From contig NZ_JASAMB010000012.1 of the NCBI RefSeq assembly GCF_029948125.1, positions 62,001 through 126,000 on the forward strand: a DNA stretch of 64,000 nt, written 5' to 3'. The stretch comes from Catellatospora sp. KI3. GTDB taxonomy: Bacteria > Actinomycetota > Actinomycetes > Mycobacteriales > Micromonosporaceae. Positions 27,721 through 48,981 of this stretch are shown in pieces (position 1 is the stretch's first letter; each line of letters starts with the position of its first letter). The translations under genes and the position numbers were made by a program. Under the pieces are notes generated by a model. It searched no databases. It was not told the origin of the DNA and worked only from the letters and a program-made list of their open reading frames with translations.

Positions 27721-27777
27721 GATCAACACACCTCCCAGATGAGTACCTCAGGCAAGCCTCCCGCTCGCCTGACAGCT

Positions 27778-27805: not shown

Positions 27806-27838
27806 GTCACGGCGAGCATAGGTTTCGGTGCGGCCGGC

Positions 27839-28492: not shown

Positions 28493-28607
28493 GACAACCC
28501 CTCGGAGTGACCAGATCCGTGGGCGTACCCGGCCCGAGCGGGCGACAAACCAGCCCTCACCAGGGGCAGGCTGCGTAAACCGACGGTGAGCCGGGTACTG
28601 CCACCCG

Positions 28608-29570
28608 ATGCCACTGACACGGTCACTCAGCGAGTCCACCGTCGTGATCACCGGCGCGTCCAGCGGCATCGGCGCCGCCACCGCGCTGACCCTGGCCCGG
28701 CGCAGCACCCGGCTCGTGCTCGCCGCCCGCAGCAAGCAGGGCCTGACCGACATCGGCGACGAATGCCGCCGGCTCGGCGCGCCGACCCTGGAACTGCCCA
28801 CCGACACCGCCGACGCCCGCGCCGTCGAGCAGCTCGCCGCCGACGCCGAGGCACACTTCGGCCGCGTCGACGCCTGGATCAACAACGCGGGGGTAGCCGT
28901 CTACGGCAGGCTGCGGGACCTGCCGGTGGAGCAGGTCCGGCGCACCATCGACGTGGACGTCTTCGGCTACCTGCACGGCGTTCAGGCGGCCCTGCCGAGG
29001 CTGCGCGCCGCGGGCGGCGGCGTACTGATCATGGTCGGCTCGGTGCTGTCCGAGGTGTCCCTGCCCTACCTCGGCGCGTACGTCATGGCCAAGCACGCGG
29101 TGCAGGGCCTGGCCGACTCGCTGCGCCAGGAGCTGCAGGCCGACGGGATCGACGAGGTGTCGGTGTGCACCGTGCTGCCCGCCTCGATCGACACTCCCCT
29201 GTTCGCCTGGGCCGCCAACTACACGGAACGGGAGGTCCTGGCGCCCCGCCCGCTGAGTTCGCCGCAGCACGTCGCCGACCGCATCGTCCACCTGCTGCAG
29301 TACCCGCGCCGGCAGAGCCTGGTCGGCACGGGCGCCGCCAGCGTCATGTGGCCGTGGCGGCTGGCCCCGGCCCTGGCCGAGCGCCTGCTCGTCTGGTACG
29401 GCCAGACGGCGCAGTTCGGCCGCCCCGCACCGCCGTCGCCGGGCAACCTGTTCGACCCGGTCGAGCAGCCGCGCCGCATCGACGGCGGCCGCCGCCTGCC
29501 CCTGGCCGCCCTCGCCGGCATCCCCGCCGCCGCCCTCTCCCAGGCCCGCCGCCACCTCCTCGGCGGGTGA
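28608..29570 (+). CDS. Short-chain dehydrogenase/reductase with C-terminal extension
   Basis: A 320-residue classical SDR. The NAD(P) motif TGASSGIG (15-22), NNAG (92-95), and the catalytic Ser145, Tyr158 and Lys162 (SVLSEVSLPYLGAYVMAKHA) are present. An extra C-terminal region of about 90 residues contains VMWPWRLAPALAERLLVWYGQ, seen in a subgroup of actinobacterial SDRs possibly associated with the membrane. An Arg-rich stretch after the glycine loop (ARRSTRLVLAARSKQG) favours NADPH. No strong ribosome-binding site is seen before ATG 28608. Substrate unknown. Confidence 0.85.
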   Translation: MPLTRSLSESTVVITGASSGIGAATALTLARRSTRLVLAARSKQGLTDIGDECRRLGAPTLELPTDTADARAVEQLAADAEAHFGRVDAWINNAGVAVYGRLRDLPVEQVRRTIDVDVFGYLHGVQAALPRLRAAGGGVLIMVGSVLSEVSLPYLGAYVMAKHAVQGLADSLRQELQADGIDEVSVCTVLPASIDTPLFAWAANYTEREVLAPRPLSSPQHVADRIVHLLQYPRRQSLVGTGAASVMWPWRLAPALAERLLVWYGQTAQFGRPAPPSPGNLFDPVEQPRRIDGGRRLPLAALAGIPAAALSQARRHLLGG

Positions 29571-29590
29571 CCCGCCGCGCGACAGTGGAC

Positions 29591-29650
29591 GCAGTTTCGG
29601 GGAAAGTGCTGGAATCCGGGCCGTGATTCGCGCAGTCTCCCCGAAACTGC
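29591..29650. repeat. 60-bp REP-like intergenic palindrome
   Basis: Two 26-nt arms (29591-29616 and 29625-29650) pair at 22 of 26 positions around an 8-nt loop; the outer 13 bp (GCAGTTTCGGGGA and complement) are perfect. It lies between the convergent SDR and phosphotransferase genes, so it may end both transcripts, but its length and mismatch pattern resemble a dispersed REP-like element. Confidence 0.7.
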
Positions 29651-29674
29651 ACTCTCACCAGGCCCGGAGGGCGG

Positions 29675-30457
29675 TCAGGAGGCGGGTCGGCGCCAGAAGG
29701 GGGATGGGAGTTCGGCGACCTCGGCGCCGGAGCGTTCCAGGTCCGCGGCCCACGGGAGCATGCGCTGGAAGGTCGGCTCGCCTGCCCCGGCCAGCTGCCG
29801 GATCATCGCGACGTTGCGCCCGACCCGGCCGATGATCGCGTCCCGGATCGCGGTCCGGTCGGCGGTGTAGCCGTACGCGTCCAGCAGCAGGTGGAAGCGA
29901 CGGTGCCGGTCGGCCGGGTCACCGAATCCGACCTGCTCGGCGAGCTCCGCCGTCAGCAGCGGCACCCAGGTCAGCGCCGAGAAGGCCAGATCGTCCTCGC
30001 GCCGGGACGGGCTGGCGGTGTCCCAGTCGACGAAGCCGACCAGGGCGCCGTCGGCCCACACGGCGTTCCACGGCGACGCGTCCAGATGGGCGATCAGCAG
30101 GCCCGGCTGCCACGGCCGACCGGTGAACCAGACGGGGTCGCCGGCAGGCCGATACGCCTCGGTCGCATCGTGCAGACGCCGCAGCCAGGCACCGACCTGC
30201 CTCAGCGCGTCGTCGGAGCGCAGCCACTCCGGCCAGGGCATCGTCTCGCCCAAGGTCTGGCCGGGCAGGAACGTCAGTCGCTCGCGACCCTGGTCGTCGA
30301 AGCCCCGGGCGCGCGGGGCGCCGTCGAAGCCGACCTCCTCCAGCTGCCGCAGCACCGTGTGCACGGTCGCCGTCCACGGCTGCACGGGGCGGCGGACCTC
30401 GTCGCCGACGCGTACAGCTCCGAAACTGCGCCCGCCGGGCAGCCGTTGTTCGGTCAT
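29675..30457 (-). CDS. Aminoglycoside phosphotransferase (APH) family protein
   Basis: A 260-residue kinase-fold protein. The catalytic loop HLDASPWN (124-131) and the metal-binding GFVDWDTA (Asp144) are clear. The glycine-rich N-lobe is degenerate, as in many APH-family proteins. FLPGQTLGETMPWPEWL is the usual linker to the C-lobe. The family phosphorylates small molecules such as choline, homoserine, antibiotics or sugars. Nothing here identifies the substrate, so a resistance role should not be assumed. Convergent with the SDR gene and divergent from the serine hydrolase. Confidence 0.85.
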   Translation of the reverse strand: MTEQRLPGGRSFGAVRVGDEVRRPVQPWTATVHTVLRQLEEVGFDGAPRARGFDDQGRERLTFLPGQTLGETMPWPEWLRSDDALRQVGAWLRRLHDATEAYRPAGDPVWFTGRPWQPGLLIAHLDASPWNAVWADGALVGFVDWDTASPSRREDDLAFSALTWVPLLTAELAEQVGFGDPADRHRRFHLLLDAYGYTADRTAIRDAIIGRVGRNVAMIRQLAGAGEPTFQRMLPWAADLERSGAEVAELPSPFWRRPAS

Positions 30458-30587
30458 CCCACGGTTCTACCGTGATCAGACGTCCGCCGCGACCGAATAC
30501 CCGGCTCCGCCGACGCGACCCAGACGGGCTGAGCGCCGCGGCGTATGTGGTTGTGAAGGCCCGGGGCCGTCGCTACAGTCCGCCGAC

Positions 30588-31475
30588 GTGATCGAATCTC
30601 TGTGGTCTGGCGACCGCTGGCAGCGCCGCCTGCGGGCGGCCGAGATCCACTCGCTGGTCGTGCAGCACGCGGGGCGTACCGAATGCGCGTGGTTCCGCCG
30701 GCACGGTGGCGATGACCGGCCCGTCAACCTGCACTCCGTGACCAAGAGCATCACTGGCTCCCTCGCCGGGCCCGACCGCCTCGACCTCGGCTCGTCGGTG
30801 CTGTCGCACCTTCCCCATGTCACCGTCGACGATCAGCGCAAGCACGCCATCACCGTCGAACACCTGCTCGCCATGACCTCTGGCCTGCGGTGGCCCGAGT
30901 GGGAGGAGTGGGGCGGCTACGCCAGGCCCATGACCGGCAGCAGCGACCAGCTGCGGACCATCCTCGCGCCGCCGCTGGTGGCCGAACCCGGCACCGCGAT
31001 GTGGTACTCCAGCGGCTCGTCACACCTGCTGGGCGCGGTGCTGCGCCATGCCGTCGGGCACACTGTCGCACAGCTGGCGGAGCAGTGCCTGTTCAAGCCG
31101 CTGCGCATCAGGCAGTGGCGGTTCCACGCCGACCGCCACGGCTACAGCCACGCGGGGTACGGGCTGAGCCTGCGCCCCACTGACCTGGCCCGGTTGGGCA
31201 GCGGGCTGCTGAGCGGCGACCTGGTGCCCGCCGAGTGGCTGCGGCAGTGCTGGCAGCCGCGCACCTACACGTATCCGCACGTCGGCGCATACGGCTGGCA
31301 CTGGTGGGTCGACACCGAACTCGGCATGGTGTTCGCCTTCGGCAAGGGCGGACAGCTGCTGGCGCTGTTCCCCGCCCAGGAACTGGTCATCGTGATGACC
31401 GGTGACGCCTATGGCGACGCGACCACACCCCTGCGACTCATCCGCGAGGCGCACGCCGCCCGGTCGACGCCGTAA
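30588..31475 (+). CDS. Serine hydrolase, class C beta-lactamase/DD-peptidase fold
   Basis: A 295-residue serine hydrolase. The SxxK motif is SVTK (in LHSVTKSITG), the second motif is YSS (AMWYSSGSSHLLG), and the third is represented by KGG (FAFGKGGQLL). There is no signal peptide, so the enzyme is probably cytoplasmic and acts as an esterase or amidase rather than on the cell wall. The GTG at 30588 is chosen because upstream sequence in frame is out-of-frame with the divergent phosphotransferase gene and lacks hydrolase features. The stop lies only 2 nt before the convergent gene's stop, leaving no separate terminator. Confidence 0.8.
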   Translation: MIESLWSGDRWQRRLRAAEIHSLVVQHAGRTECAWFRRHGGDDRPVNLHSVTKSITGSLAGPDRLDLGSSVLSHLPHVTVDDQRKHAITVEHLLAMTSGLRWPEWEEWGGYARPMTGSSDQLRTILAPPLVAEPGTAMWYSSGSSHLLGAVLRHAVGHTVAQLAEQCLFKPLRIRQWRFHADRHGYSHAGYGLSLRPTDLARLGSGLLSGDLVPAEWLRQCWQPRTYTYPHVGAYGWHWWVDTELGMVFAFGKGGQLLALFPAQELVIVMTGDAYGDATTPLRLIREAHAARSTP

Positions 31476-31477
31476 CC

Positions 31478-32086
31478 CTACCGGGCGTGCAGCGCCACAC
31501 CCGGTCGCGGCCTTGCGGCCAGCGCAAGGATGAGGTCCCCGGCCGACGCCTCGACCGGGGACCCCCGCCCGGCTTCCCAGGCCAGGTCGGTGGCACGAAG
31601 CAGCCGCCCGGTGGGGTCGACGCCGAAGTGGCCGCTCGCGCCGCCGGTGGTCAGCGTGTCGAGCACGAGCCGGGTGGCCGTGTCGTCGGCCGTTCTCGGG
31701 AGCCCGATCGCCGAGGTGATGTCGAGACCGTGGATGACGGCGTGGCTGAGCGCCCCGGCCGCACCGCCGCCAGGCGGTGCCCACGCCGCCATGGCCTCGC
31801 CGCGCAGGTCGGCCAGGAGCAGGTCGAACGGCAGGTCGCCGTCCCTGCGGGCCACCTTCTCCGACAGGGCGCCGAAGTCGTGCCCGACGGCCGCGAGCTC
31901 CGCCAGGAACGACGGGCCGTCGTACCGGGCGGCCATCGTCATGTGGGCGACGACGTGCCGCACGGCCCAGCCCGTACACAGCGAGGGCTCGTCGGCCACC
32001 GAGGCGGGCCGACTCGCCAGCGCATCCGCCAGGGCCCGCAGCTGCGGCCCGACCAGTGCCTGCGCATGGTTGTCCACGGCGTTCAT
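31478..32086 (-). CDS. Maleylpyruvate isomerase-like (MDMPI/DinB) protein
   Basis: A 202-residue four-helix DinB/MDMPI-type protein. The pattern LRALADALASRPASVADEPSLCTGWAVRHVVAHMTMAARYD matches the mycothiol-dependent family: the CxGWxVxxVxxH motif supplies a metal-binding His, and a second His is in HAVIHGLDI. Actinobacteria use such proteins in thiol-dependent isomerisation or detoxification. It is the last gene of the ArsR-SRPBCC operon and overlaps the SRPBCC gene by 4 nt. Confidence 0.82.
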   Translation of the reverse strand: MNAVDNHAQALVGPQLRALADALASRPASVADEPSLCTGWAVRHVVAHMTMAARYDGPSFLAELAAVGHDFGALSEKVARRDGDLPFDLLLADLRGEAMAAWAPPGGGAAGALSHAVIHGLDITSAIGLPRTADDTATRLVLDTLTTGGASGHFGVDPTGRLLRATDLAWEAGRGSPVEASAGDLILALAARPRPGVALHAR

Positions 32087-32544
32087 CCGTTCTTCTCGGT
32101 GGCGGCGAGGGCCGCGATGTAGGCGGCGGCCCGGTCGAGCGCCGTGCTCCAGCCCGCGCGGGCCTGCGGCGTGCGCATCCACGGGGGCAGGCCGCGCTGG
32201 GTGGTCACGACTTCGGTGGTGCCGTCGCCGAGGTCGACGAGGGTCACCTCGCTGAGGACCCCGGAGTCGAGTTCGCGCCACGACACGTACCGCGGCGGGT
32301 CGACCTCGACGTAGACCGCGCGCATGGTGAAGGTCTCGCCGTTCACGTCGTTGACCATCGTGGTCTCGAAGGCGCCGCCGGGCCGCAGGTCGAGCACGAT
32401 GCTCCCCGGTGGCGTGTGCGTGCCGGCCGGACCCCAGAACTCGGCCAGGTGCTCCGGCGTCGTCAGGCAGGTGAACACGAGGTCGCGCGGCGCCCGGTGG
32501 ACGTGGCGGACGGTGAAGTCGCCCTCGGCGGACGGGACGGTCAT
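32083..32544 (-). CDS. SRPBCC (AHSA1-like) domain protein
   Basis: A 153-residue START/AHSA1-type ligand-binding fold. It has HVHRAPRDLVFTCLTTPEHLAEFWGP, LDLRPGGAFETTMV, FTMRAVYVEVDPPRYVSW and the C-terminal helix GWSTALDRAAAYIAALA. These proteins are commonly encoded next to an ArsR repressor, as here, and bind hydrophobic small molecules. It is coupled by 4-nt overlaps to both neighbours. Ligand unknown. Confidence 0.87.
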   Translation of the reverse strand: MTVPSAEGDFTVRHVHRAPRDLVFTCLTTPEHLAEFWGPAGTHTPPGSIVLDLRPGGAFETTMVNDVNGETFTMRAVYVEVDPPRYVSWRELDSGVLSEVTLVDLGDGTTEVVTTQRGLPPWMRTPQARAGWSTALDRAAAYIAALAATEKNG

Positions 32545-32882
32545 CGCTGCTCCCCGCCCAGGCGCCGGAGGTGTTCGGCCAGCCGGTCGTGCCGGTCGTG
32601 CCACTCGGTGCGCCTGGCGTCGATCCATGCCAGCACCTCGACCAGCCGGTCGACCTCCAGGCTGGCCGGGCGGGCCTGGGCGACATGCCGCCGCGACACG
32701 AGCCCGGCGTCGGCCAGGACTTTGAGGTGGCGGGACACGGCCTGCTGGGTCAGCGCGAACGGCTCGGTCAGCTCCTTGACCGTGGCGTCGCCCCGCGACA
32801 GCCGCGCGACGATCGCCACCCGGGTCGGGTCGGCCAGCGCCATGAAGGTGCGGGCCAGATTCTCCGCGGTAGCAGCTTCCAC
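32541..32882 (-). CDS. ArsR-family repressor, probably leaderless
   Basis: A 113-residue ArsR/SmtB-type winged helix (LARTFMALADPTRVAIVARLSRGDATVKELTEPFALTQQAVSRHLKVLADAGLVSRR). No metal-binding cysteine pair is seen, as in the ArsR members that pair with SRPBCC proteins. An in-frame TTG at 32900 would extend it by 6 residues, but that codon lies inside the palindromic operator and has no ribosome-binding site. The GTG at 32882 falls 6-7 nt after the predicted -10, so the mRNA probably begins at its own start codon. It likely represses the three-gene operon. Confidence 0.87.
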   Translation of the reverse strand: MEAATAENLARTFMALADPTRVAIVARLSRGDATVKELTEPFALTQQAVSRHLKVLADAGLVSRRHVAQARPASLEVDRLVEVLAWIDARRTEWHDRHDRLAEHLRRLGGEQR

Positions 32883-32888
32883 AACTGG

Positions 32889-32917
32889 ATACTTGCACAA
32901 CGAATTCGTTGTGTAAA
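32889..32917 (-). promoter_or_regulatory. arsR promoter with perfect 18-bp operator in the spacer
   Basis: Minus-strand TTTACA (32917-32912), 17-bp spacer, AAGTAT (32894-32889). The spacer region contains CACAACGAATTCGTTGTG (32896-32913), a perfect 18-bp palindrome extending to 22 bp with one mismatch. A dimer bound here would block polymerase. The predicted transcript start coincides with the GTG at 32882. Confidence 0.7.
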
Positions 32918-32960
32918 GCCCGTGACCAGCGATGGCGCACGCGCGGGCAGTCGATACCGG

Positions 32961-33953
32961 TCAGCCGGCCTTCCGGACCACGCTGCCACCGCGCCGGGGC
33001 CGGCGGGCGGCTACCGACACGGGCCGGACCGGTGGGCGCACCCGCCGCCACCACAGCCGCTGCACGGTGAGGGTGAGAGCGCCCGCGACCACGATCGCGG
33101 CCAGGTTGATCAGCAGCTGCAGCGCCGAGCCCCAGGCCTCGTCGGCCACACCGTAGGCGGCCGCCACCGCGACGTTGGCGGCCGCGGGCACCGTCGTCAC
33201 CGAGATCAGCACCCCGATCAGCGCACCCGAGCGGGCCGAGGTGATCGACACCATCCCGGCGATCCCGGCCAGGAAGCCGACGACCCACGACAGCGCGTCC
33301 GGCCGCCAGATGAAATCGGTGTACGGCCGCTCGGCCAGCAGCATCGACCGGTCGACCAGCCCGGCCGCGGTCATCAGCCAGGTCGCCGCGACCGTGGCGG
33401 CCATCGCCACCGGAAAGCCCACCGCCAGCGCCGCGGCCGAGCGCGCGACCATCGGGCGGCGGCCCTGCACCAGGCCGATGCTCAATCCGGCCAGCGGCCC
33501 GAACTCCGGCCCGACGACCATCGCGCCGACGATGAGGATCGGCTGGTCGAGCAGCACCCCCACGGCGGCGATGATGGTCGCGACGATAAGGAGCACCAGG
33601 TACGTCGCCGACAGCCGCGTGTCCTGCCCAGTGCGGTGCTCGATCTCCTCCCACACCACGGCATCGGCGCCGGTCCCGGGCGTACGGGCAGCCGCCAGCT
33701 GTGCGGCGTCGGACAGGACGACCGCCGACTCGTCGATAGCGATCGCGCCCTCATGCTCGACGCCCAGCGTGCGCAGGTGGTCCAGGACCGCGTTGGCGCC
33801 CTCCCGGGCCACGTCGCACAGGATCACATCCCCGAGCGGTTCTACGGCCGCACCGGGAAGGACCGCAAGGTGGGCGACCGCCCCGTCGGCCGCCAGCGCC
33901 TTGACGACGGCGTCGGACAGGTGCGGCGGCGCGATGATTCGAAGGTGAAGCAC
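32961..33953 (-). CDS. DUF389 membrane protein
   Basis: A 330-residue DUF389/TIGR00341-type protein. A soluble N-terminal ferredoxin-like domain (VLHLRIIAPPHLSDAVVKALAADG) is followed by six or so membrane helices, including the family motif ILIVGAMVVGPEFGPLAGLSIGLVQGR. A basic cytoplasmic tail rich in Arg ends the protein. GTG 33953 is chosen because GGAGG lies 5 nt upstream and directly precedes the conserved N-terminal strand; the longer ORF to 34028 has no such site. Function of the family is not established; transport is suspected. Confidence 0.87.
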   Translation of the reverse strand: MLHLRIIAPPHLSDAVVKALAADGAVAHLAVLPGAAVEPLGDVILCDVAREGANAVLDHLRTLGVEHEGAIAIDESAVVLSDAAQLAAARTPGTGADAVVWEEIEHRTGQDTRLSATYLVLLIVATIIAAVGVLLDQPILIVGAMVVGPEFGPLAGLSIGLVQGRRPMVARSAAALAVGFPVAMAATVAATWLMTAAGLVDRSMLLAERPYTDFIWRPDALSWVVGFLAGIAGMVSITSARSGALIGVLISVTTVPAAANVAVAAAYGVADEAWGSALQLLINLAAIVVAGALTLTVQRLWWRRVRPPVRPVSVAARRPRRGGSVVRKAG

Positions 33954-34135
33954 GAATTCCTCCGGGGTGGACTGGCGTCGAGCATTGCGCATGTCACCTC
34001 TTCCCGGATAACCGGCCCCGACACCCATCGGAACGCCGATTTTCCGTGGCGCCCGAGGTTTCGCGCGGCGCCGGCGCGGATATCGAGAGGCGACCGGCCG
34101 TCAACCGGCCCGATACGCCGAGTGCGAGGTAGAGC

Positions 34136-34324
34136 ATGTCCTTCCTGTTCGATCCCGACAGCATGGTCGTCACGACCGCGCTGGAGCTGCTGGACTCGCA
34201 TCAGCCGGTATCGGTCGAGGACTCGACCTGCGAAGCCTGCGGGGCGCAGTCGCCCTGCGACACCGCGGTCAACGCGCGCCAGGTCGAACTGGCCACTGAC
34301 TTCTCCCGCCGCTTCCCCGGCTGA
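34136..34324 (+). CDS. Small Cys-containing hypothetical protein
   Basis: A 62-residue protein with ATG preceded by GAGGTAGAGC. It has an amphipathic N-terminus (MSFLFDPDSMVVTTALELLDSH), then CEACGAQSPC, which could bind zinc or a cluster through three cysteines, then a helical tail (NARQVELATDFSRRF). It resembles small actinobacterial proteins of unknown function. No partner gene is obvious; DUF389 is divergent from it. Confidence 0.6.
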   Translation: MSFLFDPDSMVVTTALELLDSHQPVSVEDSTCEACGAQSPCDTAVNARQVELATDFSRRFPG

Positions 34325-34393
34325 CCGGTCCTGGCTGGGACCTCGTGCTCCGGACACCGACGTCCTACGCTCGACGCAGACGGAGGTGAGCCG

Positions 34394-34513
34394 GTGCGTG
34401 TGCTGGTGCGGTTCGTCGGCCGGGCGATCGCGGCAGCCGCCGTTAGGAGTGCGGTACGACACCGCGCCCGTCGAGCAGGGCCTCCCAGGTCAGATCTCGA
34501 CCGCCCGGAATGA
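34394..34513 (+). pseudogene. Possible 5' gene remnant at the left edge of the accessory segment
   Basis: A strong GGAGGTGAGCCG site precedes a GTG that opens a 39-codon frame (VRVLVRFVGRAIAAAAVRSA onward). The start looks like that of a real actinobacterial gene, but the frame ends inside the 3' end of the convergent dam gene. I read it as the possible stump of a gene cut when the herA-nurA-dam segment arrived. It could also be chance. Confidence 0.3.
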
Positions 34514-35536
34514 CGCATCGTCAGGGAATTTGGGCAGGGTCGTGATGACGAGCTCGTCTTTTGGGCCGCGGCCGGTGCGGCCGCTGGCGGAGTAGCGAAG
34601 CTCGACGAGTCTCTTTTGAACGCGCCACTGCCGCACGCCAGGGCTGTGCGGCTGCACCGTCTTGGCCTGGTAGAGAGCGCGGATATCGGCGTGGTCGTCA
34701 TAGGACAGCACCCACCGGTAGGGAACGTGATGCAGAAGCTGAGCGGCAAGCTGCAGGTGATTGAACGCGGCGTACTCGGCCGTGTAGAGACGGTCTGCCT
34801 TGTCCACGTAAGGAGGATCAAGGTAGACGACGACGTCGCCGCTGGCGGCGTACTCCGGGAACTGCTCTCCGAAAAGCTTGAGGGTCTGCTGCCACTCACC
34901 GCGCCAGGCCGCCACGAGCCGTCCGGACCTGTACAGGTCGCCGACGAATCGGATGCGCTCAGCCAAGGCGTCCTTGTTGAATCGGCAGCCGATCGCGTAG
35001 TCCGATTCTTGTTTGCGTCCGCCGATGGGGCCGGCACGGCCATGCAGGATGCCGGAGAACGTGGTGCGGTTGAGGAAGAGGCACTTGACGGCGAGTTCAG
35101 GATCGTCAGGCGATTTCTGCTCGTAAGCGCGCCAGTAGTCCCAACGGTCGAGCGTCACCGGCTCGTCGATCATGCGATCGACCAGCCACTCAGGCCGCGT
35201 GGCGGCCGTGATCCAAAAGTTGGCGACGAGGGGGTCGGCGTCACCGATGATCGCATGGGAGACAATGCCGTCGGCCAGCAGGCGAAGTGTCGTGGCCGCT
35301 CCGCCTGCGAACGGCTCCAGGAAGAAGGGCGGCTTCTTGGCGTTGGCCTTGATCAGCTCGGCGATGCAACGGGCGATGCCGCTCTTGGCGCCCGGGTAGC
35401 GCAGCGGGCTGAGGTAGCGCATCGAGGCCCGATCCGGGTTCGGGAGCGGTCCGGCCTTGACGGTGGACGCGGTGGCAGCCTCGCTTGAGGCTGGCACCGC
35501 ATCGATGGGGCGGCCCCCGTTCGCCCTCTTCGTCAT
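34490..35536 (-). CDS. dam: Dam-type N6-adenine DNA methyltransferase
   Basis: A 348-residue D12-class adenine methyltransferase. SAM-binding motifs are YPGAKSGIARCIAELI and FLEPFAGGAATTLRLL; the catalytic motif is DPPY in VVYLDPPYVDKADRLY (about 238-241). RWVLSYDDHADIRALY is the usual post-catalytic strand. A Pro/Ala-rich N-terminal extension of about 35 residues precedes the domain. It is last in the herA-nurA-dam operon and overlaps nurA by 4 nt (ATGA). Methylation of host DNA could mark self against the HerA/NurA nuclease, though the target sequence is not readable (Dam relatives often use GATC). GC and codon use are less extreme than in flanking genes. Confidence 0.9.
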   Translation of the reverse strand: MTKRANGGRPIDAVPASSEAATASTVKAGPLPNPDRASMRYLSPLRYPGAKSGIARCIAELIKANAKKPPFFLEPFAGGAATTLRLLADGIVSHAIIGDADPLVANFWITAATRPEWLVDRMIDEPVTLDRWDYWRAYEQKSPDDPELAVKCLFLNRTTFSGILHGRAGPIGGRKQESDYAIGCRFNKDALAERIRFVGDLYRSGRLVAAWRGEWQQTLKLFGEQFPEYAASGDVVVYLDPPYVDKADRLYTAEYAAFNHLQLAAQLLHHVPYRWVLSYDDHADIRALYQAKTVQPHSPGVRQWRVQKRLVELRYSASGRTGRGPKDELVITTLPKFPDDASFRAVEI

Positions 35537-36891
35537 TGCGCCATGCCCAGCTTCTGCTGCGCGACGAGCTTAAGTACGTCGGTGCCCACGCCGATGGGAT
35601 ATGCGGCAGTTCCGTGGGCCAAGGCGATCGGTACCAGCGCGTTGAGGTACATGGTTGAGCCAGTCCGGTCGATTACGTCGAGGATGGCAGGCATCGTCGG
35701 ATAGTGCTGAGGCTCGGGGCGCCCGCCCTGCTTGCTGTAGGGCGTTCCGGTGGCTGGCGGGATGGTGACGACGAGTACGCGTCCATCTGTGGCGCGATAG
35801 ATGAACTTGCGGCCCCAGTAGGTGGCCTGACCGTAGTTCTTCGGGTTGGGGTTGTTGGTTACGTGTGCGATGACCTCGTCATCGATCACAAGGAGCTGGC
35901 CAGGCTCCAGGACGTCGTAGCGTGCCATCGCTTCGGCGAAGTCGACGAACTCGCTGGACTTCTCCACGCCGCAGATAAACGGACCGAGCGTCCCGGGCTG
36001 GGTCATCGACTGGATGAACGCCAACGTGGGGGTCTTCAGGGGTGCGGTAACGCCTTGCGCCGCGAGAGGGCCGTCGACGATGAACAGCGTCTTGGGGAGG
36101 TAGGAGTTGCGGGCGGATCGCCACAGCAGGGTCATAAGGCCGATGACGACCAGGAGCTCGACGATCTGCATCAGGCGGGTCAGCGGCAGCTCGTTCGTCC
36201 CCTCGTCGGTAACGTCTTCGGTGAGCCGCAGCTTGTCGATCGGCACGACCTCGGCGCTGCACGCGGGGCAGGTGGTGCCGGTGGGCTCCACCGCGATGTT
36301 CTTCTGAGGGCAGGCGACGCAGTCGACCGGGATGGTGCTGGCGGGCCGGTCCGGTGTTCCGTGCAGCAGGTACAGCAGCTCCAGCAAGGTCTGGTTGAGG
36401 CCGTTGACCTCGACCCGTTTGCGCTGGAACAGGTCGAATACGGCCTCGCGCCAGGACTGCTTGATGTCGATGCCCTGGCGGGTGTAGGCACCGGCGGTGG
36501 GCAGGTCGAGGGCGACCAGCGCCCTCCGGGCCGCCTGGTGCAGGACCACCGGGTCCACGAAGCGCTCCTGGCGTTGCGTCTCCAGCGCGCCAAGATCGAG
36601 ATAGACGGCCCCGGCTTGGACGTAGCCATAGCGGACCGAAGGCAGCCCCGCCCGCGCCTCGACGACCATGCGGGAGCCGTCGACCGCGATGGCGTGGCTC
36701 AGGGTCGCGGCCGCGCCGTCGGGCACAAGCTCTGAACGCTTCTTGATCTTGCCCGCGAGCCACTGCGTATCAGCAAGGTGCTCAACCGGCACGTAGAACT
36801 CCGCGCGCTCAGCAAGCGCGCGGACCACCGTATAGGTGTGTGCAGTGCGGCTGGCTCGCTCGAAGCCGCCGTGTCCATCGTCGTAGGGCAT
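35533..36891 (-). CDS. nurA: NurA-type nuclease with zinc-ribbon insert
   Basis: A 452-residue protein resembling NurA 5'-3' nucleases. AIAVDGSRM (Asp at about 67) supplies the first metal-binding Asp, and LFIVDGPLAAQG (about 269-280) looks like the second RNase-H-like strand. FICGVEKSSEFVDFAE and WGRKFIYRATDG occur at the expected C-terminal places. An insert carries CVACPQKN and CPACSAEV (about 191-211), a four-Cys zinc ribbon unusual for archaeal NurA. It lies 18 nt downstream of a HerA-type ATPase, the normal partner, with which it would form a DNA-translocating nuclease. Identification rests on these motifs plus context. ATG with GGGAGAACGGG upstream. Confidence 0.75.
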   Translation of the reverse strand: MPYDDGHGGFERASRTAHTYTVVRALAERAEFYVPVEHLADTQWLAGKIKKRSELVPDGAAATLSHAIAVDGSRMVVEARAGLPSVRYGYVQAGAVYLDLGALETQRQERFVDPVVLHQAARRALVALDLPTAGAYTRQGIDIKQSWREAVFDLFQRKRVEVNGLNQTLLELLYLLHGTPDRPASTIPVDCVACPQKNIAVEPTGTTCPACSAEVVPIDKLRLTEDVTDEGTNELPLTRLMQIVELLVVIGLMTLLWRSARNSYLPKTLFIVDGPLAAQGVTAPLKTPTLAFIQSMTQPGTLGPFICGVEKSSEFVDFAEAMARYDVLEPGQLLVIDDEVIAHVTNNPNPKNYGQATYWGRKFIYRATDGRVLVVTIPPATGTPYSKQGGRPEPQHYPTMPAILDVIDRTGSTMYLNALVPIALAHGTAAYPIGVGTDVLKLVAQQKLGMAQ

Positions 36892-36909
36892 CCCGTTCTC
36901 CCGGCAAGA

Positions 36910-39063
36910 TCAGAGGAGGGTACCCTGAGTGGGTGGAGGCACCAGAGCCGACTCGCCCGCGACCGCGCGAGCCTCGTTGACGACCTCCAGGCCGTAGCGA
37001 TCGATCTGCACCGGCACGATGAACGGTGACGACATGGTCTTCAGCCGCACGTAGCCCTTGTCCTCAGCCTTGATGATGCTGTCTGCGTGCGCGGCGAAGT
37101 CGTAGAAGCGCGACAGTTCCTGCACCTCGCGGGTGTTGTTCAGGTGAGCGACGACCCAGTTCTTGGTGTTGGCGAGCACCTCGTGTGCGACGCCCGTCAC
37201 CTCCTGCGTCGCATATACGAGGCCGATGTTGAGCTTCGCAGCCTCCTTCGCAAGATCCACCCATGGGTCGGAGCGATCTTTGTCGAACTTGCGCCGGTCG
37301 AACAGGTTGTGCGCCTCCTCGACCACGACCTGGATGCTCGGCGGCTTTGTCCCGGAGGTAAAGATCTCGGTCTGCTTGGCGATCAACCGGTAGACGATCG
37401 CCTCAGACAGCCGCTTGATCACAGCCTCCGCGCCCAGGTGCAGGTCAACGATGATCACGCGCCCCGCAACGAGATCCTCGTGGATCTCGTCGGCGACATC
37501 GCGCTTGGTGTTCTCGTTGTGGAAACGGTTGAGCTTGATCAAGTTACGGTAGCCGCGGACCCGGCTACTCAGGGACTGCCCGGTAAAGATCGGCTCCGTC
37601 GACTGCCAGCGCACGTCATCGGTGAACTCCTTCGCCGCGACGCTGCCTGCCTCCCGCAAGTCGATAACCTTCTGAACCACTTCAATCATGTTCTCGGCAC
37701 GGATCGCGCACATGCCGTTTCCGTTAGGCAACAGCCGCAGAAGTGGCTCCTTGGCCTCCTCCTCACCGTCGCTGGGTGCTGGCTTCGGGGGGTCGATGGC
37801 CTCGCGAAGCTCCTTCTTCACCGGCACGAGCACGCTGTACCCGGTCGGCGGCTTGAAGCCAGCCTTCAGCAGGGACGCGTACAAGGCCAGACGCCCTCGC
37901 TGTGCGTACGCCGTGGCACGGCGGTCGCTGCGGTCGTCCTCGAAGCTTGCCTGCGCAAAGTCCTGCACGTATCCCGACGAGCTGTCAGCAAGCTCGCCCG
38001 CCACCATGGCCTGCACCGCGCCGATTTGCTGGGGATCGAAGAAGTTGATGCCGAGCGGCCGCACGTGCGACTGCGAGCCATCCGCGCCGAACTTGTAGAT
38101 GCTCACGTGATTCGGGCCGATGGCCGCGATCTCCGTGCCGTCCTGGGTGTTCGGGTTGGCGTACTCGCCTTGCGGGTCGAAGATCAGTTGTCCGATTGGT
38201 GCCTCGCCCATCCGCCTGCGCCGTTCGGACACCATGAACACGCGGGCGGTCACGGTCTTCATCGTGTTGGACTTGCCCATCCGGGTCATGCCGAACATGC
38301 CGGTCTTCTGGCCGACGAAGTCCTCGACGTTGATCTCGACTGCTGCGTCAGCGTGGCCTGCGGCCCGAGCGCGACGCCGCGTCGAGGAGTACCGCACGAC
38401 GCCGATCCGCACACGCTGGACACTCTGGTCCGCGACGGGCTTGAGATAGGAGGCGATGGAGGACAGCCCATCGCCAATGGGCTTGTACACGCGGTACGTA
38501 GCGGTAGCGTAGAAGTTGTCGACGTCATGTCCCCAGTCCAGGACCATCTCGCCGTCGAGCTGCTCCTCGTAGAAGGTGCCGAGGATGCGGCAATCCAGGC
38601 CAGTGAAGGAGATCCGTTCCTTCGTGTACGGGTCGATGCCAAGTACGTCGTCGGTCGTGGGTATGCGCCCACCGACCAAGGCTTGCCGCAGAGCCTCTTC
38701 GCGCACGCTCAGCAGATCGCGTTCCATCGCGAGGTTCGCGACTCCTTCGACGCGCAGGAGAAGAACCTCATCATCGTCAGGATCGCTAACCTTGCGGCCG
38801 GAGATGTCACGTGCCGTCGCCAGCAGGAAGCAGAATGGCGGGATGCCACCAGCATCGGCCTTCCACTTGTCGGCGGTCAGAACCAGCGCTCGCTCGTAAT
38901 CCAAGCGGTACACGCCGCCGACCTCAACTGCCCGCGACGGATCAAGAAGCTCGCGTTGCAACAACGATCCACGCCCGACTCCCGGGACCAGCTCGACCAC
39001 ATCGACCCCCTTCGTGTCCCCGAGATCGTACTCAATCCTTACGACACAGAGTGGCCCCGTCAC
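36910..39063 (-). CDS. herA: HerA-family hexameric DNA-translocating ATPase
   Basis: A 717-residue HerA/DUF87 ATPase. A HAS-barrel-like N-terminal domain (about 1-120) is followed by the RecA/FtsK-like core: Walker A GMTRMGKSN (about 258-266), a Walker-B-like IFDPQGEY strand, and Walker B VVVEEAHNLF (about 579-588). A conserved TQEVTGVAHEVLANTKNWV segment carries the sensor/arginine-finger region, and NFFDPQQIGAVQAMV is typical of HerA. A charged insert lies about residues 400-440. The GTG at 39063 (VTGPLCVVRIEYD) begins the HAS-barrel; the ORF upstream is a shadow of the IS110 gene. HerA pumps dsDNA into NurA. IS110 has landed about 140 bp upstream of the start. Confidence 0.88.
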   Translation of the reverse strand: MTGPLCVVRIEYDLGDTKGVDVVELVPGVGRGSLLQRELLDPSRAVEVGGVYRLDYERALVLTADKWKADAGGIPPFCFLLATARDISGRKVSDPDDDEVLLLRVEGVANLAMERDLLSVREEALRQALVGGRIPTTDDVLGIDPYTKERISFTGLDCRILGTFYEEQLDGEMVLDWGHDVDNFYATATYRVYKPIGDGLSSIASYLKPVADQSVQRVRIGVVRYSSTRRRARAAGHADAAVEINVEDFVGQKTGMFGMTRMGKSNTMKTVTARVFMVSERRRRMGEAPIGQLIFDPQGEYANPNTQDGTEIAAIGPNHVSIYKFGADGSQSHVRPLGINFFDPQQIGAVQAMVAGELADSSSGYVQDFAQASFEDDRSDRRATAYAQRGRLALYASLLKAGFKPPTGYSVLVPVKKELREAIDPPKPAPSDGEEEAKEPLLRLLPNGNGMCAIRAENMIEVVQKVIDLREAGSVAAKEFTDDVRWQSTEPIFTGQSLSSRVRGYRNLIKLNRFHNENTKRDVADEIHEDLVAGRVIIVDLHLGAEAVIKRLSEAIVYRLIAKQTEIFTSGTKPPSIQVVVEEAHNLFDRRKFDKDRSDPWVDLAKEAAKLNIGLVYATQEVTGVAHEVLANTKNWVVAHLNNTREVQELSRFYDFAAHADSIIKAEDKGYVRLKTMSSPFIVPVQIDRYGLEVVNEARAVAGESALVPPPTQGTLL

Positions 39064-39209
39064 GGACAGTTCGCCGTTACCCGATTGGGGGTTTTCCCGG
39101 CGGCTCGGGCACGAGTCGATTACGCAGCATCGCCGCCCTTCGGCCACGCCGCGGTTGCGGCGCGGCCGAGTCAGCGTCGCGATGTGCTCGCCTGATGCTC
39201 CTATGGATG

Positions 39210-40268
39210 TCAAGCGCTTGTGATCGCGGCGAAGTCGGCCAGTAGCGCTTCGTGTACTTCGCGGACGATGTAGCGCTTGAGGCAGCGCATGATCTCTTTC
39301 TTGGTCAGACCCTGCTTGGTGCGTCGGTCGACGTAGTCGCGGGTGCGTGGGTCCCAGCGCATGCGGCAGAGCGCGATGGTGTGCAGGGCGCTGTTGGCGG
39401 CCCGGTCGCCGCCGCGGTTGAGGCGGTGGCGGTCGGTGCGTCCGGAGCTGGCGGGGATCGGCGCGGCGCCGCACAGGTGTGCCAGGGCTGCTTCCGAGCG
39501 CAGCCGGTCGGGGTTGTCACCGGCGGTGGCCAGCAGCTGTCCGGCGACTTCCGGGCCGACGCCCTTGAGCGCGCTCAGCCGTGGCGCGGTGCGGGCGATC
39601 ACCGGACGCAGCCGCCGGTCGGCTTGAGCGATCTCGGCGTCGAGAGCCTGGACGCGGCCGGCGACCGCGGCCAGTGCGGCCCTGGTCGCCTGGGCCGGGT
39701 CGGTCATGGCGGTGTCGTCGCAGTTCAGGCCTGCGCAGGCGGTGACCGTCATGGCGGTGCTCAGTCCGGCCAGGTCGGCGCGGATGTCCTCGGGTGCCGC
39801 CGTGATCAGGCCGTGAAGCTGGTTGAGCGCCGCGGTGCGTGCCTTGACCGCGCCCCGGCGGGCCACGCGCAGGGCGCGGATGGCCTCGACCGGGCCGGTG
39901 CGGGTCTTAGGTGTTCCGGTCGCCTGTCCGGACAGTGCGGCGCGGGCTGCGGCGACGGCGTCGATCGGGTCGGACTTGCCTTTGGTCCGGCGGGTCTTGC
40001 GGTCGGGCCGGTCGACCTCGACCAGGTCGACGCCTTCGCCGGTCAGGTAGCGGGCCAGGCCGGCTCCGTAGGCGCCGGTGCCCTCGATCCCTACCTTGAC
40101 CGGCCGCCCGTGTGAGCGCAGCCAGGCCAGTAGCTGCCGGTAGCCCGCCGCAGTCGCGGGAAACTGCTGGTCTGCCAGTACCCGGCCGGTCTGGTCGATC
40201 ACGGCGGCGTGGTGGGTCTTGCCGTGGGTGTCTATCCCGCCCGTGACCGGGCGCTTCTTGGCTGCCAT
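39210..40268 (-). CDS. IS110-family transposase (DEDD + Tnp20)
   Basis: A 352-residue bridge-RNA-type recombinase. The RuvC-like DEDD set is intact: Asp12 (GGIDTHGKTHHAAVID), Glu62 (VGIEGTGAYG), Asp100 and Asp103 (KSDPIDAVAAARAA). The C-terminal transposase-20 domain has LKGVGPEVAGQLLA and AHLCGAAPIPASSGRTDRHRLNRGG, with the catalytic Ser-type region near ANSALHTIA. The length is complete, so the element may be active. The start is ATG 40268 after GAGGCGACGG; the upstream extension in frame has no family similarity. The stop codon TGA is embedded in the outward-facing TTGACA. Confidence 0.93.
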   Translation of the reverse strand: MAAKKRPVTGGIDTHGKTHHAAVIDQTGRVLADQQFPATAAGYRQLLAWLRSHGRPVKVGIEGTGAYGAGLARYLTGEGVDLVEVDRPDRKTRRTKGKSDPIDAVAAARAALSGQATGTPKTRTGPVEAIRALRVARRGAVKARTAALNQLHGLITAAPEDIRADLAGLSTAMTVTACAGLNCDDTAMTDPAQATRAALAAVAGRVQALDAEIAQADRRLRPVIARTAPRLSALKGVGPEVAGQLLATAGDNPDRLRSEAALAHLCGAAPIPASSGRTDRHRLNRGGDRAANSALHTIALCRMRWDPRTRDYVDRRTKQGLTKKEIMRCLKRYIVREVHEALLADFAAITSA

Positions 40269-40370
40269 GCTGGAACCGTCGCCTCTTTCGCTTGCACCGA
40301 ACAGAGTCGGCACGCACCCGCCGGGACGGCGGACAAGACAGTGACGGGACCTCTTGCACAGGCTCCTATG
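40269..40370 (-). ncRNA. Candidate bridge-RNA region of the IS110 left end
   Basis: About 100 nt between the left-end core and the transposase start. IS110 elements encode their guide (bridge) RNA in this non-coding end. A CCGCC-GGGA-CGGCGG type hairpin is visible around 40318-40333. The space is shorter than in IS621, so the RNA would have to run into the coding sequence. I cannot place its loops or guides. Confidence 0.35.
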
Positions 40371-40546
40371 AAGTCACATGCCCGACCAGTGACGTGCAGG
40401 AACGGGCACCCGGACGGTCGACGAATCCTCACGAGGACAGAAATCGTCGGTCAGGCGGTGGGTCAGACCGCCCAGGTGACCCGCTCCTACATCCTCACTG
40501 TCAGGCGTCCATCGTGGTGACACAGACCAAATGCTACGGTGAAGCC
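40371..40546. other. Spacer between IS110 and tnpB
   Basis: A 176-bp segment. It contains a hairpin GGCGG/CCGCC near 40464-40480 and a CTGTCA/TGACA dyad around 40498-40521, one of which may belong to the left end of the TnpB element. An ORF beginning in the IS core (ATG 40368) runs 50 codons (MKSHARPVTCRNGHPDGR onward) to 40520. It could be a fragment of a host gene but is not supported enough to call. Confidence 0.3.
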
Positions 40547-41758
40547 GTGAAGCTGGTGGTGCAGGTCAAGCTCCAGCCCACGCCGCAGCAGGCGTCGTCG
40601 CTGGAAGCGACCCTGCGAGCCTGCAACACGGCGGCTTGTGAAGCGGCCGCCGTGGCACGCCGGACCGGCGTCTATCGCAACTACGACCTGCGCAGAGACG
40701 TCTACCAAGCGGTCAAGGGCGAGCATCGGCTCGGCGCGCAAGCGGCCCAGCACGTGATCAAGAAGGTCAGCGACGCGTACAAGACGCTGTCGTCCAACAT
40801 CCGGGCCGGCAACCTCGGCAGGCCTGGATCAAAACGCCGCCGTGACGCCGAGTCTAGGCCGGTGTCATTTCGATGGGATGCCGCGCAGCCCTACGACGCG
40901 CGGATGCTGTCCTGGCAGGCAGACGCCGGTACCGTGTCGATCTGGACTGTCGACGGCCGATGCAAGGGCGTGGCGTACACCGGGTCACCGCAACAGCTCA
41001 AAGCCGTGGCAAGCCTGCCGCTCGGGGAGTGCGACCTGGTCCACCGCGACGGCATGTGGTTTCTGTACGCCACGGTCGAGGTAGCCGAGCAGGCGACGTA
41101 CGAACCTGACGGCTTCCTCGGCGTGGACATGGGCATCGCCAACATCGCCTACGACTCCGACGGCAACCGCCATGCCGGAACACGGCTCAACGGCTACCGC
41201 CGCCGCCAGCAGAGGCTGCGAAAACGGCTGCAGACCAAATCCACGAAGTCGGCGCGCAGGCTGCTGGCCCGGCGCCGCCGCAAGGAAACGCGCCACGCCG
41301 CGAACGTCAACCACCTCATCGCCAAGACCATCGTGACCGAGGCTGCACGCACCGGCCGCGGCATCGCCGTCGAAAAACTGACGGGCATCCGCGACCGGGT
41401 CCGGCTCCGAAAGCCCCAACGGGTCACCCTTTCCTCATGGTCTTTCCACCAACTCGGCGCGTTCCTGACCTACAAGGCACACCGAGCTGGTGTCCCACTG
41501 GTCCAGGTCGACCCGCGCTACACCTCCCAGACCTGCAACCGGTGCGGGCACCGCGACAAACGCAACCGGCCCGATCAGGAAACGTTCACCTGTCGATCGT
41601 GCGGGGTCGTTGCCCACGCCGATCACAATGCGGCCCTCAACATCGCCCAACGCGGTGTCGAGGACTGGGGCGCAGTCAATCGCCCGCACGCGGCCTCACC
41701 TCGTAGCCAGCCAGGACGAGAGACCTGCAAGCCTGGCCCTTCAGGGCCGGGTAGTTGA
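40547..41758 (+). CDS. tnpB: TnpB RNA-guided nuclease (lone IS200/IS605-type accessory gene)
   Basis: A 403-residue TnpB. The N-terminal wedge begins VKLVVQVKLQPTPQQASSLE. The split RuvC nuclease has Asp194 (GVDMGIANIAYD), Glu276 (IAVEKLTGI) and Asp359 (HADHNAALNIA). The zinc finger is CNRCGH (Cys330 onward) and CRSCG. All catalytic residues are kept, so RNA-guided dsDNA cleavage is possible. No TnpA is nearby, so the element is non-autonomous or domesticated. GTG 40547 is chosen at the conserved N-terminus with GGTGA upstream; in-frame GTGs at 40514 and 40517 would add about 10 residues. The C-terminal tail after NIAQRG is low-complexity and overlaps the expected omega RNA. Confidence 0.93.
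   Translation: MKLVVQVKLQPTPQQASSLEATLRACNTAACEAAAVARRTGVYRNYDLRRDVYQAVKGEHRLGAQAAQHVIKKVSDAYKTLSSNIRAGNLGRPGSKRRRDAESRPVSFRWDAAQPYDARMLSWQADAGTVSIWTVDGRCKGVAYTGSPQQLKAVASLPLGECDLVHRDGMWFLYATVEVAEQATYEPDGFLGVDMGIANIAYDSDGNRHAGTRLNGYRRRQQRLRKRLQTKSTKSARRLLARRRRKETRHAANVNHLIAKTIVTEAARTGRGIAVEKLTGIRDRVRLRKPQRVTLSSWSFHQLGAFLTYKAHRAGVPLVQVDPRYTSQTCNRCGHRDKRNRPDQETFTCRSCGVVAHADHNAALNIAQRGVEDWGAVNRPHAASPRSQPGRETCKPGPSGPGS
41640..41758 (+). ncRNA. Candidate omega RNA (right-end RNA) of the TnpB element
   Basis: TnpB guides are transcribed from the 3' end of tnpB through the right end. Here a hairpin CCTGGCCC-TTCA-GGGCCGGG (41732-41751, one G-U pair) followed by GTAGTTGAC looks like the right-end stem. 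The guide would be the flank just after about 41759. The 5' limit given is arbitrary. Confidence 0.45.
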
Positions 41759-41768
41759 CCGGATCCGG

Positions 41769-42287: not shown

Positions 42288-42680
42288 TCAGGGCAGGTGC
42301 GCGCGCATCCAGGCGCGGCAGCTCTCGGCGTCAGGGTGGGCGCAGTCGGCGAGGTGGCGCAGCAGGGCTTCGGCGGTACGCAGCAGCGCGATCTTCTCGA
42401 TCACCTCGGGCAGCTTGCCCGCCGCGTACCGTGCCCGCTGCTGCGGATCGGAGGCGTCCAGGATCAGCATTATCTCCTCGACGCTGGCGCCCAGCCCTTG
42501 GCACAACCTGATCATCTCGGCCCGGTCCAGGTCCGCCGCCTGGTACCGGCGATGGCCGTTGACCAGCCGCTGCGGCACCAGCAGCCCTTCGGCGTCCCAG
42601 TAGCGCAGCGTGGTGGCGGGCACCTTCGACCGGGCGGCGAACTCCGCCACGGTCCACTGCGCGGTGCTCGGCTCGGCCAC
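42288..42680 (-). CDS. MerR-family regulator
   Basis: A 130-residue MerR protein. The winged helix has WTVAEFAARSKVPATTLRYWDAEGLL, then NGHRRYQAADLDRAEMIRLCQGLG; the dimerisation helix is SVEEIMLILDASDPQQRARY, then LPEVIEKIALLRTAEALLRHLADC. A C-terminal CAHPDAESCRAW with two Cys could sense thiol-reactive or metal species, but this is speculative. GTG start at 42680. It is divergent from the NAD(P)-binding gene and an 18-bp palindrome lies between them, 21 bp upstream of its start. Confidence 0.87.
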   Translation of the reverse strand: MAEPSTAQWTVAEFAARSKVPATTLRYWDAEGLLVPQRLVNGHRRYQAADLDRAEMIRLCQGLGASVEEIMLILDASDPQQRARYAAGKLPEVIEKIALLRTAEALLRHLADCAHPDAESCRAWMRAHLP

Positions 42681-42697
42681 GGCACGCTCCCGCTCGC

Positions 42698-42728
42698 TTG
42701 ACTTCGAGTCGACTCGAAGGTGTGGCAT
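42698..42728 (+). promoter_or_regulatory. MerR-type promoter with perfect 18-bp operator
   Basis: TTGACT (42698-42703), a 19-bp spacer typical of MerR activation, and TGGCAT (42723-42728). CTTCGAGTCGACTCGAAG (42702-42719) is a perfect palindrome in the spacer. It drives the NAD(P)-binding gene and is probably bound by the divergent MerR protein. Confidence 0.65.
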
Positions 42729-42773
42729 GCACCGTACCCACGCACCGGCGATGGGTTGAAGGTGAGGAGCCAC

Positions 42774-43439
42774 ATGTCCATTCGCATCACCGTGCTCGGC
42801 GCCACCGGCCGGGTCGGCGCCCTCGTGGTCCGGCAGGCCCTGGCCCAGGGTCGGCAGGTGACCGTCCTGGTCCGCGACGCGGGGCGGCTGCCCGCCGACC
42901 TGCCGGGCCGCAGCGGCCTGCGGGTCGTGACCGGACAGATCGACGATCCGGTGGCGGTGGCCGAGGCGGTGAGCCCGGCCCCGGACGCGGTCGTCGTCTG
43001 CGCCGGGCTGCGCTACCGGCGCGGTCACCCGTGGAGTGGTGTCGCGGGCCGGTCCGACGTCGTGCCGGCAGCGGTGCGCGCCCTGCTCCCGGCCGTGCCG
43101 CCCAGCACCAGGCTGGTGCTGCTCAGCGCCGTCGGCGTCGGCGAGTCGTGGCAGCGCCTGCCGTGGATCGCCAGGGCCGTCATCGGTACGAGTTCACTGC
43201 GTACGGCGTACCGGCAACTCGGTGCGGCCGAGCGGCTGCTGGCCGGGGTGCCGAACCCGGTGACCGTGGTCCGCGCGGTGACGCTCACGGACGGACCGGG
43301 CAGCGGGCGGACGGTGAACGCCACCGGGCGCCCGCTGCGCGGCAATCCGACGGTGCCCCGGGCGGACGTGGCCGCGCTGCTGCTCGACTGCTCGGCCGAG
43401 GCGCACCAGGGCTCGCGCGTGCTCGTCGCGGCGGCCTGA
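42774..43439 (+). CDS. NAD(P)-binding, atypical SDR (NmrA/NAD(P)H-binding type)
   Basis: A 221-residue Rossmann protein. ITVLGATGRVGALVVRQALAQG is the GATGxxG motif of atypical SDRs (SDR_a5-like); VVVCAGLRYRRGHPW and LVLLSAVGVGESWQ follow. The active-site YxxxK is not evident, as in NmrA or flavin-reductase-like members. GGTGAGGAG precedes ATG 42774. It is controlled by a MerR-type promoter, suggesting induction by a small molecule and a redox or detoxification role. A 14-bp hairpin follows the gene. Confidence 0.82.
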   Translation: MSIRITVLGATGRVGALVVRQALAQGRQVTVLVRDAGRLPADLPGRSGLRVVTGQIDDPVAVAEAVSPAPDAVVVCAGLRYRRGHPWSGVAGRSDVVPAAVRALLPAVPPSTRLVLLSAVGVGESWQRLPWIARAVIGTSSLRTAYRQLGAAERLLAGVPNPVTVVRAVTLTDGPGSGRTVNATGRPLRGNPTVPRADVAALLLDCSAEAHQGSRVLVAAA

Positions 43440-43449
43440 CCGGCGCCGA

Positions 43450-43496
43450 CGCCGACTGTGCCCGAACGGGGCAGCCGCCGCCGGGCACAGTCGGCG
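43450..43496 (+). terminator. Hairpin terminator after the NAD(P)-binding gene
   Basis: Perfect 14-bp arms CGCCGACTGTGCCC and complement (43450-43463/43483-43496) with a 19-nt loop, starting 10 nt after the stop. Confidence 0.8.
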
Positions 43497-43548
43497 GGCA
43501 GTAGAACGTTATTGCGATCTTCGATGTCTGGGAGTACAACAAATTCAC

Positions 43549-43592
43549 TGTGTTCGATATCGGAAAAAGGCGCCATGTCGCCATCGAACACA
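43549..43592. promoter_or_regulatory. Inverted repeat upstream of the alpha-galactosidase gene
   Basis: TGTGTTCGAT (43549-43558) and ATCGAACACA (43583-43592), perfect 10-bp arms separated by 24 bp, ending 19 nt before the GTG. Either paired half-sites for a regulator or a leader hairpin that brings the ribosome-binding site near a stem. Confidence 0.45.
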
Positions 43593-43611
43593 CTCCGTCC
43601 CAGGAGGAATC

Positions 43612-45684: not shown

Positions 45685-45690
45685 ATCAAA

Positions 45691-48980: not shown

Positions 48981-48981
48981 C

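Follow-up and report, generated by a model that had tools for sequence, protein, structure and literature searches.

Three adjoining minus-strand genes in a 64,000-nucleotide stretch of Catellatospora sp. KI3 (contig NZ_JASAMB010000012.1, positions 62,001 to 126,000; hereafter the window, whose own positions serve as coordinates unless a locus identifier of the form Lnnn is given) encode a HerA-family hexameric DNA translocase, a NurA-fold nuclease and a D12-class (alpha) DNA adenine-N6 methyltransferase. Comparison of their sequences suggests that the family to which this trio belongs is probably an undescribed restriction-type defence. We consider it likely that the trio is a three-gene, restriction-modification-like module in which HerA would feed unmarked DNA to NurA while methylation would protect self DNA. 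The locus joins a feature of restriction-modification systems, a DNA methyltransferase linked to a nuclease, to the feature of HerA-NurA pairs, a HerA ATPase adjoining an RNase H-like NurA nuclease. The observations behind this proposal are gene content, predicted folds, intact motifs, recurrent linkage, methyltransferase exchange and a patchy accessory distribution.

Motor, nuclease and methyltransferase

The original prediction, made from this DNA alone, described a minus-strand operon with an 18-nt gap followed by a 4-nt overlap, and the genes, their order, strand and spacing are as it described: herA terminates at 36910 ahead of the nurA start at 36891, while nurA ends at 35533 and the methyltransferase gene starts at 35536. 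The HerA gene (36910..39063) encodes 717 residues when read from a GTG at 39063, though this is one possible start and therefore uncertain, as the open frame reaches up to 39474. The product matches PF01935 (DUF87, the HerA central domain; E 6.6e-9) and has intact ATPase motifs, in keeping with the HerA-type ATPase first proposed. All residues but 262 of its Walker A motif, GMTRMGKSN (residues 258-266; 38266..38292, minus strand), are invariant across 46 aligned HerA proteins, and the Walker A and EEAH motif patterns occur in 85/85 HerA proteins examined. When the AlphaFold2 model (pLDDT 86.0, pTM 0.85) was compared with solved structures using Foldseek, ranks 1-6 were all TdpA chains (best 8wfd_D, E 5.0e-26), followed by Thermococcus HerA (E 1.9e-18); a sequence profile search likewise placed TdpA at the top (E 3.4e-36, next match 1.1e-17). 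PADLOC gave partial matches only, to the HerA, mad8 and DndH models. By profile and predicted fold, the protein is thus a HerA-family ring motor whose closest solved relative is TdpA.

The middle gene (35533..36891, minus strand) encodes a 452-residue protein that scores above cut-off with no family of Pfam or NCBIfam and matches none in PADLOC. Its predicted fold is that of NurA, as anticipated, with TdpB as the best fold match, and homologues on three plasmids carry a NurA annotation in their records. The four-cysteine zinc ribbon first noted in this protein is present (Cys191, 194, 208 and 211; 36259..36321, minus strand), and conservation across 55 NurA relatives reaches 90% or more at Cys191, 208 and 211, with Cys194 not among these positions. 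Because only 55/94 NurA proteins contain two CxxC pairs, the full ribbon appears to be common among the relatives but not universal. A scan of viral contigs with the NurA alignment found no relative, and a search of a viral structure library returned nothing at E up to 0.001.

The third gene (34490..35536, minus strand) encodes a 348-residue protein whose assignment as a D12-class adenine methyltransferase is upheld by PF02086 (E 6.5e-14) and by profile matches to DpnII/Dam-type structures in the PDB. Its best PADLOC match is the PD-Lambda-5_B model (PDLC04018; E 2.1e-64). In the catalytic DPPY motif (residues 240-243; 34808..34819, minus strand), Asp240, Pro241 and Pro242 are invariant in 29 sequences.

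Linkage to methyltransferases and exchange of the partner

Loci were gathered by NurA similarity alone, blind to methyltransferases, from plasmids, phages, relatives in the class and, of 149 relatives on genome contigs, the best 80, and were scored as linked when a D12 gene or one with a methyltransferase motif lay no more than 700 bp from the HerA-NurA block. After removal of 16 duplicates or sub-loci (L001-L005, L015, L035, L096-L102, L108 and L109), a methyltransferase was found beside the block in 80 of 93 non-duplicate loci (window excluded; 79 from the motif/D12 scan plus L021 from its D12 hit), compared with 5/138 for control genes of at least 300 residues lying more than 2.5 kb away. 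Nine of the 13 loci without a methyltransferase (L032, L037, L039, L051, L053, L067, L071, L085 and L092) have a contig end within 1.2 kb of the block. Omitting them gives 80/84, a figure that favours the restriction reading because short-flank loci showing a methyltransferase are kept, and 80/93 is hence given too. The raw count retains near-identical loci (e.g., L043-L045); when loci were merged by NurA identity, with the window included and the nine short loci omitted, linkage was 57/60 at 70%, 20/21 at 50% and 10/11 at 40%. In this survey the trio, proposed as a unit from a single locus, proved to be conserved as one elsewhere.

The partners are of several kinds: 28 of the 80 are D12 enzymes (two of which, L014 and L065, are of a distant kind), 35 carry an SPPF motif and 17 an SPPY motif, and PF01555 is matched by 52/52 of the SPPF and SPPY partners. 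Both motifs usually mean N4-cytosine methylation. Since the neighbour at most HerA-NurA loci is a PF01555 enzyme unrelated to D12, the linkage revealed by these comparisons is to methyltransferase function, not to one family. The HerA-NurA-Dam module first put forward therefore holds for the D12 share of loci, but the module is wider than that trio, because PF01555 partners form the majority (52/80). Gene arrangement also varies by class: SPPF genes lie upstream on the same strand in 35/35 cases, SPPY genes are upstream in 14 and downstream in 3, and D12 genes (n=27) are on the same strand upstream in 11 and downstream in 10, and on the opposite strand in 6.

The partner methyltransferase has been replaced repeatedly on the HerA-NurA core. 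L104 and L103 share 84% identity in HerA and 80% in NurA but 34% in the methyltransferase, and the corresponding values for L030 and L024 are 73%, 68% and 40%; conversely, the window and L023 share 38% and 31% identity in HerA and NurA but 63% in the methyltransferase. In a quickly built tree of 85 HerA-NurA pairs (nine of 94 NurA rows, lacking a HerA piece of more than 1500 bases, were omitted), the three partner labels need at least 6 changes and the D12 label 4, soft counts in that several changes fall on long branches (L010, L014, L072 and L083). That unrelated methyltransferases replace one another while the core stays nearly constant suggests one of two options: HerA-NurA senses a generic mark, or the methyltransferase that happens to be present directs it. 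The near-identical HerA-NurA pairs of L103 and L104, with their different methyltransferases, make this question of mark reading directly testable.

A very unlikely alternative is that two separate systems merely adjoin, the nuclease being HerA-NurA and the methyltransferase either an orphan or of the PD-Lambda-5 type. In PADLOC the window enzyme is matched best by the B component of PD-Lambda-5, a system that pairs its methyltransferase with a different protein of ~450 residues, and HerA-NurA is missing from 9 of the 17 class genomes that have a D12 relative. These nine solo D12 enzymes (L135-L143; 34-39% identity) mostly adjoin a ~450-residue protein, with a GNRR motif in the listed starts of 6/9, and PD-Lambda-5_A was recognised beside 2/3 of those tested. 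Among 131 neighbours of trio loci two match PD-Lambda-5_A as well, with L025 and L029 negative, and the D12 enzyme of L065 may also belong to a neighbouring system. Against this, no PD-Lambda-5_A was found by PADLOC among the genes examined beside the window methyltransferase. In the D12 tree, which omits the weak D12 hits L014 and L065 (both still counted among the 28), the trio enzymes form their own part, apart from the solo enzymes; the exceptions, L104 and L010, group with solo enzymes of genomes without HerA-NurA. Most HerA-NurA loci, moreover, adjoin the unrelated PF01555 enzyme.

The distribution of the family bears on a further alternative, which we regard as most improbable: that HerA-NurA here is a DNA-end repair pair and the methyltransferase adjoins it by happenstance. 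Canonical HerA-NurA is described as end-resection machinery, in which a ring of HerA sits on a dimer of NurA (PMC9960219). Archaeal and Deinococcus HerA-NurA share the motor-nuclease pair and folds with the window proteins, but match less well in fold than TdpAB and are described without a methyltransferase. Among 394 class genomes, 8 have NurA (profile E up to 0.001), the identical 8 have HerA (E up to 1e-20), and all of them are among the 17 with D12 relatives (E up to 1e-20); NurA occurs in 5/101 relatives; 8/394 is too patchy for core repair. The 80/93 methyltransferase linkage also argues against this explanation, as does a 2026 study of Thermococcus HerA-NurA that questions a role in end resection and proposes one in antiviral defence (PMC12977600). 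Record titles place bacterial members in actinobacterial, Chloroflexi, Bacteroidetes-type, Firmicutes-type, cyanobacterial, proteobacterial and candidate-phylum lineages, and haloarchaea are also among the members; some relatives are on plasmids.

Proposed mechanism and related systems

From these observations we infer complex formation, restriction, self-protection and mark reading. The methyltransferase, judging from its D12 class, would mark host DNA with N6-methyladenine, and the HerA ring would dock on a NurA dimer, as in solved HerA-NurA and TdpAB assemblies. By analogy with those complexes, HerA would then pump double-stranded DNA into the NurA nuclease, so that unmarked DNA, such as that of an incoming phage or plasmid, would be degraded and marked host DNA spared. 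Loading would most likely occur at DNA ends or breaks, and the methyl mark most likely blocks or stalls HerA-NurA, much as phosphorothioate blocks or stalls TdpAB. Alternatively, the methyltransferase itself may recruit HerA-NurA to unmethylated sites.

A broader and more doubtful possibility is that HerA-NurA serves as a general core for restriction, able to read many kinds of mark, the ring sensing a chemical bump on the threaded DNA and not its sequence. The partners would then comprise the N6-adenine D12 enzymes, the PF01555 SPPF and SPPY enzymes (likely N4-methylcytosine) and phosphorothioate in Tdp. If this were so, replacing the marking gene would be enough to change specificity, and DNA would be restricted processively from its ends instead of being cut at specific sites.

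TdpABC is a phosphorothioate-based anti-phage system in which TdpC forms the phosphorothioate. Its motor (TdpA, of the HerA kind) and nuclease (TdpB, of the NurA kind), solved as TdpAB complexes (PDB 8wet and 8wfd), have the closest folds to the window pair. The differences are that the window marking enzyme is a D12 DNA methyltransferase and TdpC was not seen, that HerA and NurA have 717 and 452 residues compared with 586 and 358 for TdpA and TdpB, and that the two nucleases are not connected by sequence search. Because its third gene encodes a D12 methyltransferase, the trio was not filed as TdpABC. On whether the trio matches a named system, the picture is mixed: PADLOC has no family for this NurA and its HerA hits are partial, but the closest solved motor and nuclease are TdpA and TdpB.

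To our knowledge, SIR2-HerA and DUF4297-HerA have no methyltransferase partner. Both of these anti-phage systems, SIR2-HerA (Nezha) and DUF4297-HerA, resemble the window pair in joining an effector to a HerA-type motor (PMC11291478), but their effectors differ and they score below TdpA against the window HerA; neither effector lies beside that HerA, whose partner is the NurA-fold protein. BREX-related HerA/FtsK capture systems were rejected, as the available parts of their descriptions make no mention of NurA (PMC12839542, PMC10853773), and a phage packaging or conjugation motor alone was rejected because a nuclease-methyltransferase partner is not expected of one. HerA, NurA and Tdp also go unmentioned in the text of a 2026 review table of modification-based systems (PMC12904381).

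If the restriction reading is correct, the family would add to restriction-modification a class that is compact, widespread and built on a ring translocase supplying DNA to a nuclease. TdpABC and the methylation-based systems would then share one design, in which the motor and nuclease stay constant and the marking enzyme can be exchanged, and the debate over whether HerA-NurA serves repair, antiviral defence or DNA donation would gain a concrete context.

Genomic setting, DNA transfer and neighbours

The trio sits in an accessory segment (34331..41759) together with the gene of an IS110 element and a TnpB-type gene. In another genome of the genus (G005), both flanks align at 82-91% identity, while these 7.4 kb have no blastn match (E up to 1e-8) in the syntenic region; ~2.1 kb of other sequence occupies the site, and no NurA match was found in G005. 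Guanine-cytosine content is lower in the trio (0.645) than in the flanks (0.729 at 24000-34330 and 0.722 at 42288-60000), and both mobile-element genes lie on one side of the trio, as the original prediction had noted. An artefact was rejected as an explanation, as relatives retain the trio in independent assemblies.

The trio might instead be a DNA-transfer module, in which HerA-NurA and the methyltransferase process DNA and pump it out on behalf of a mobile element, the role put forward for TdtA-NurA of the integrative and conjugative element (ICE) ICETh1; we hold this reading to be unlikely. In Thermus thermophilus HB27, the co-transcribed tdtA operon (TTC1877-TTC1880) encodes a type IIG enzyme, a NurA-like nuclease (377 residues), the HerA/FtsK-type TdtA and a 410-residue PF01555 methylase, and lies on the active ICETh1 in a low-GC mobile segment (PMC5365140). 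Deletion of tdtA or nurA abolishes or strongly cuts DNA donation (PMC5365140, PMC7767461), whereas loss of the methylase has minor effects only (PMC7767461). By description, this operon resembles the trio in its NurA-like nuclease, HerA/FtsK-type ATPase and methylase, and differs in the extra type IIG enzyme, the reported role in DNA donation and a methylase that is not D12; neither a type IIG nor an integrase gene was seen beside the window trio. The Vibrio locus L010, which adjoins an integrase gene, and the relatives on plasmids are also consistent with transfer. Set against these are the segment ends, at which direct repeats were sought and none found, and the genes adjoining the window trio, which include no ICE-kind recombinase. 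Phage_integrase accounts for only 2/131 neighbours at 26 D12 loci, no conjugation family is among the 25 commonest of 78 neighbour families, and repeated methyltransferase exchange is easier to reconcile with restriction than with export.

The novelty of the trio is limited by two precedents, TdpABC and the operon of Thermus ICETh1. The original prediction put the three parts forward as a candidate undescribed module; an operon of NurA, HerA-type ATPase and methylase is already known from the Thermus ICE (PMC5365140). No account presenting HerA-NurA-methyltransferase as a system of defence was found in the literature searched, with subscription papers and preprints outside its scope.

The neighbour survey covered 131 proteins at 26 D12 loci, and the 25 commonest of 236 PADLOC and 78 Pfam families were considered. 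Among these, PDC-M01/PtuA, type III restriction and PD-Lambda-5_A have two members each by PADLOC, and Cas1, Cse1, Cas3 and DarT one each by Pfam. Defence-type neighbours, which count in favour of the restriction reading, were confirmed singly at L018, L026, L030 and L016.

Several findings weigh against the restriction reading. The neighbour survey has no background rate, and enrichment is not shown by it. The NurA profile search by sequence found no solved NurA or TdpB, and PF09376 is matched by only 17/55 NurA relatives, the window protein not among them; this family has no match in the window's genome and matches in 7/14 control genomes. Four full-flank loci (L007, L008, L058 and L081) have no methyltransferase, and L058 lacks HerA too. 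Finally, the Thermus NurA/TdtA/methylase operon serves DNA donation, and its methylase is minor there (PMC5365140, PMC7767461).

Individual loci vary in other ways. The cyanobacterial plasmids L007 (6623-10299) and L008 (6469-10149) carry a small XRE regulator with HerA and NurA and no adjoining methyltransferase, and the HerA-NurA pair of L081 (6841-10365), without a recognisable methyltransferase, falls within the SPPY part of the tree. L010 (1-5750) is a Vibrio phage-like element with an integrase, HerA, NurA and a convergent D12 gene, in whose record Gabija and Shedu are also noted. On the Deferribacter megaplasmid L009 (5006-8804), a TnpA/TnpB element interrupts the HerA gene.

The two mobile-element genes of the accessory segment are regarded as bystanders. 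The TnpB-type gene (40292..41758, plus strand; PF07282, E 7.4e-25) directly adjoins the IS110-family transposase gene (39210..40313, minus strand; PF01548, E 1.7e-26, and PF02371, E 6.3e-19), and no TnpA partner was noticed. Beyond the other end of the trio, ARAGORN calls a tRNA-Cys at 33075-33154, inside a DUF389 gene (32961-34028), which is probably a false call.

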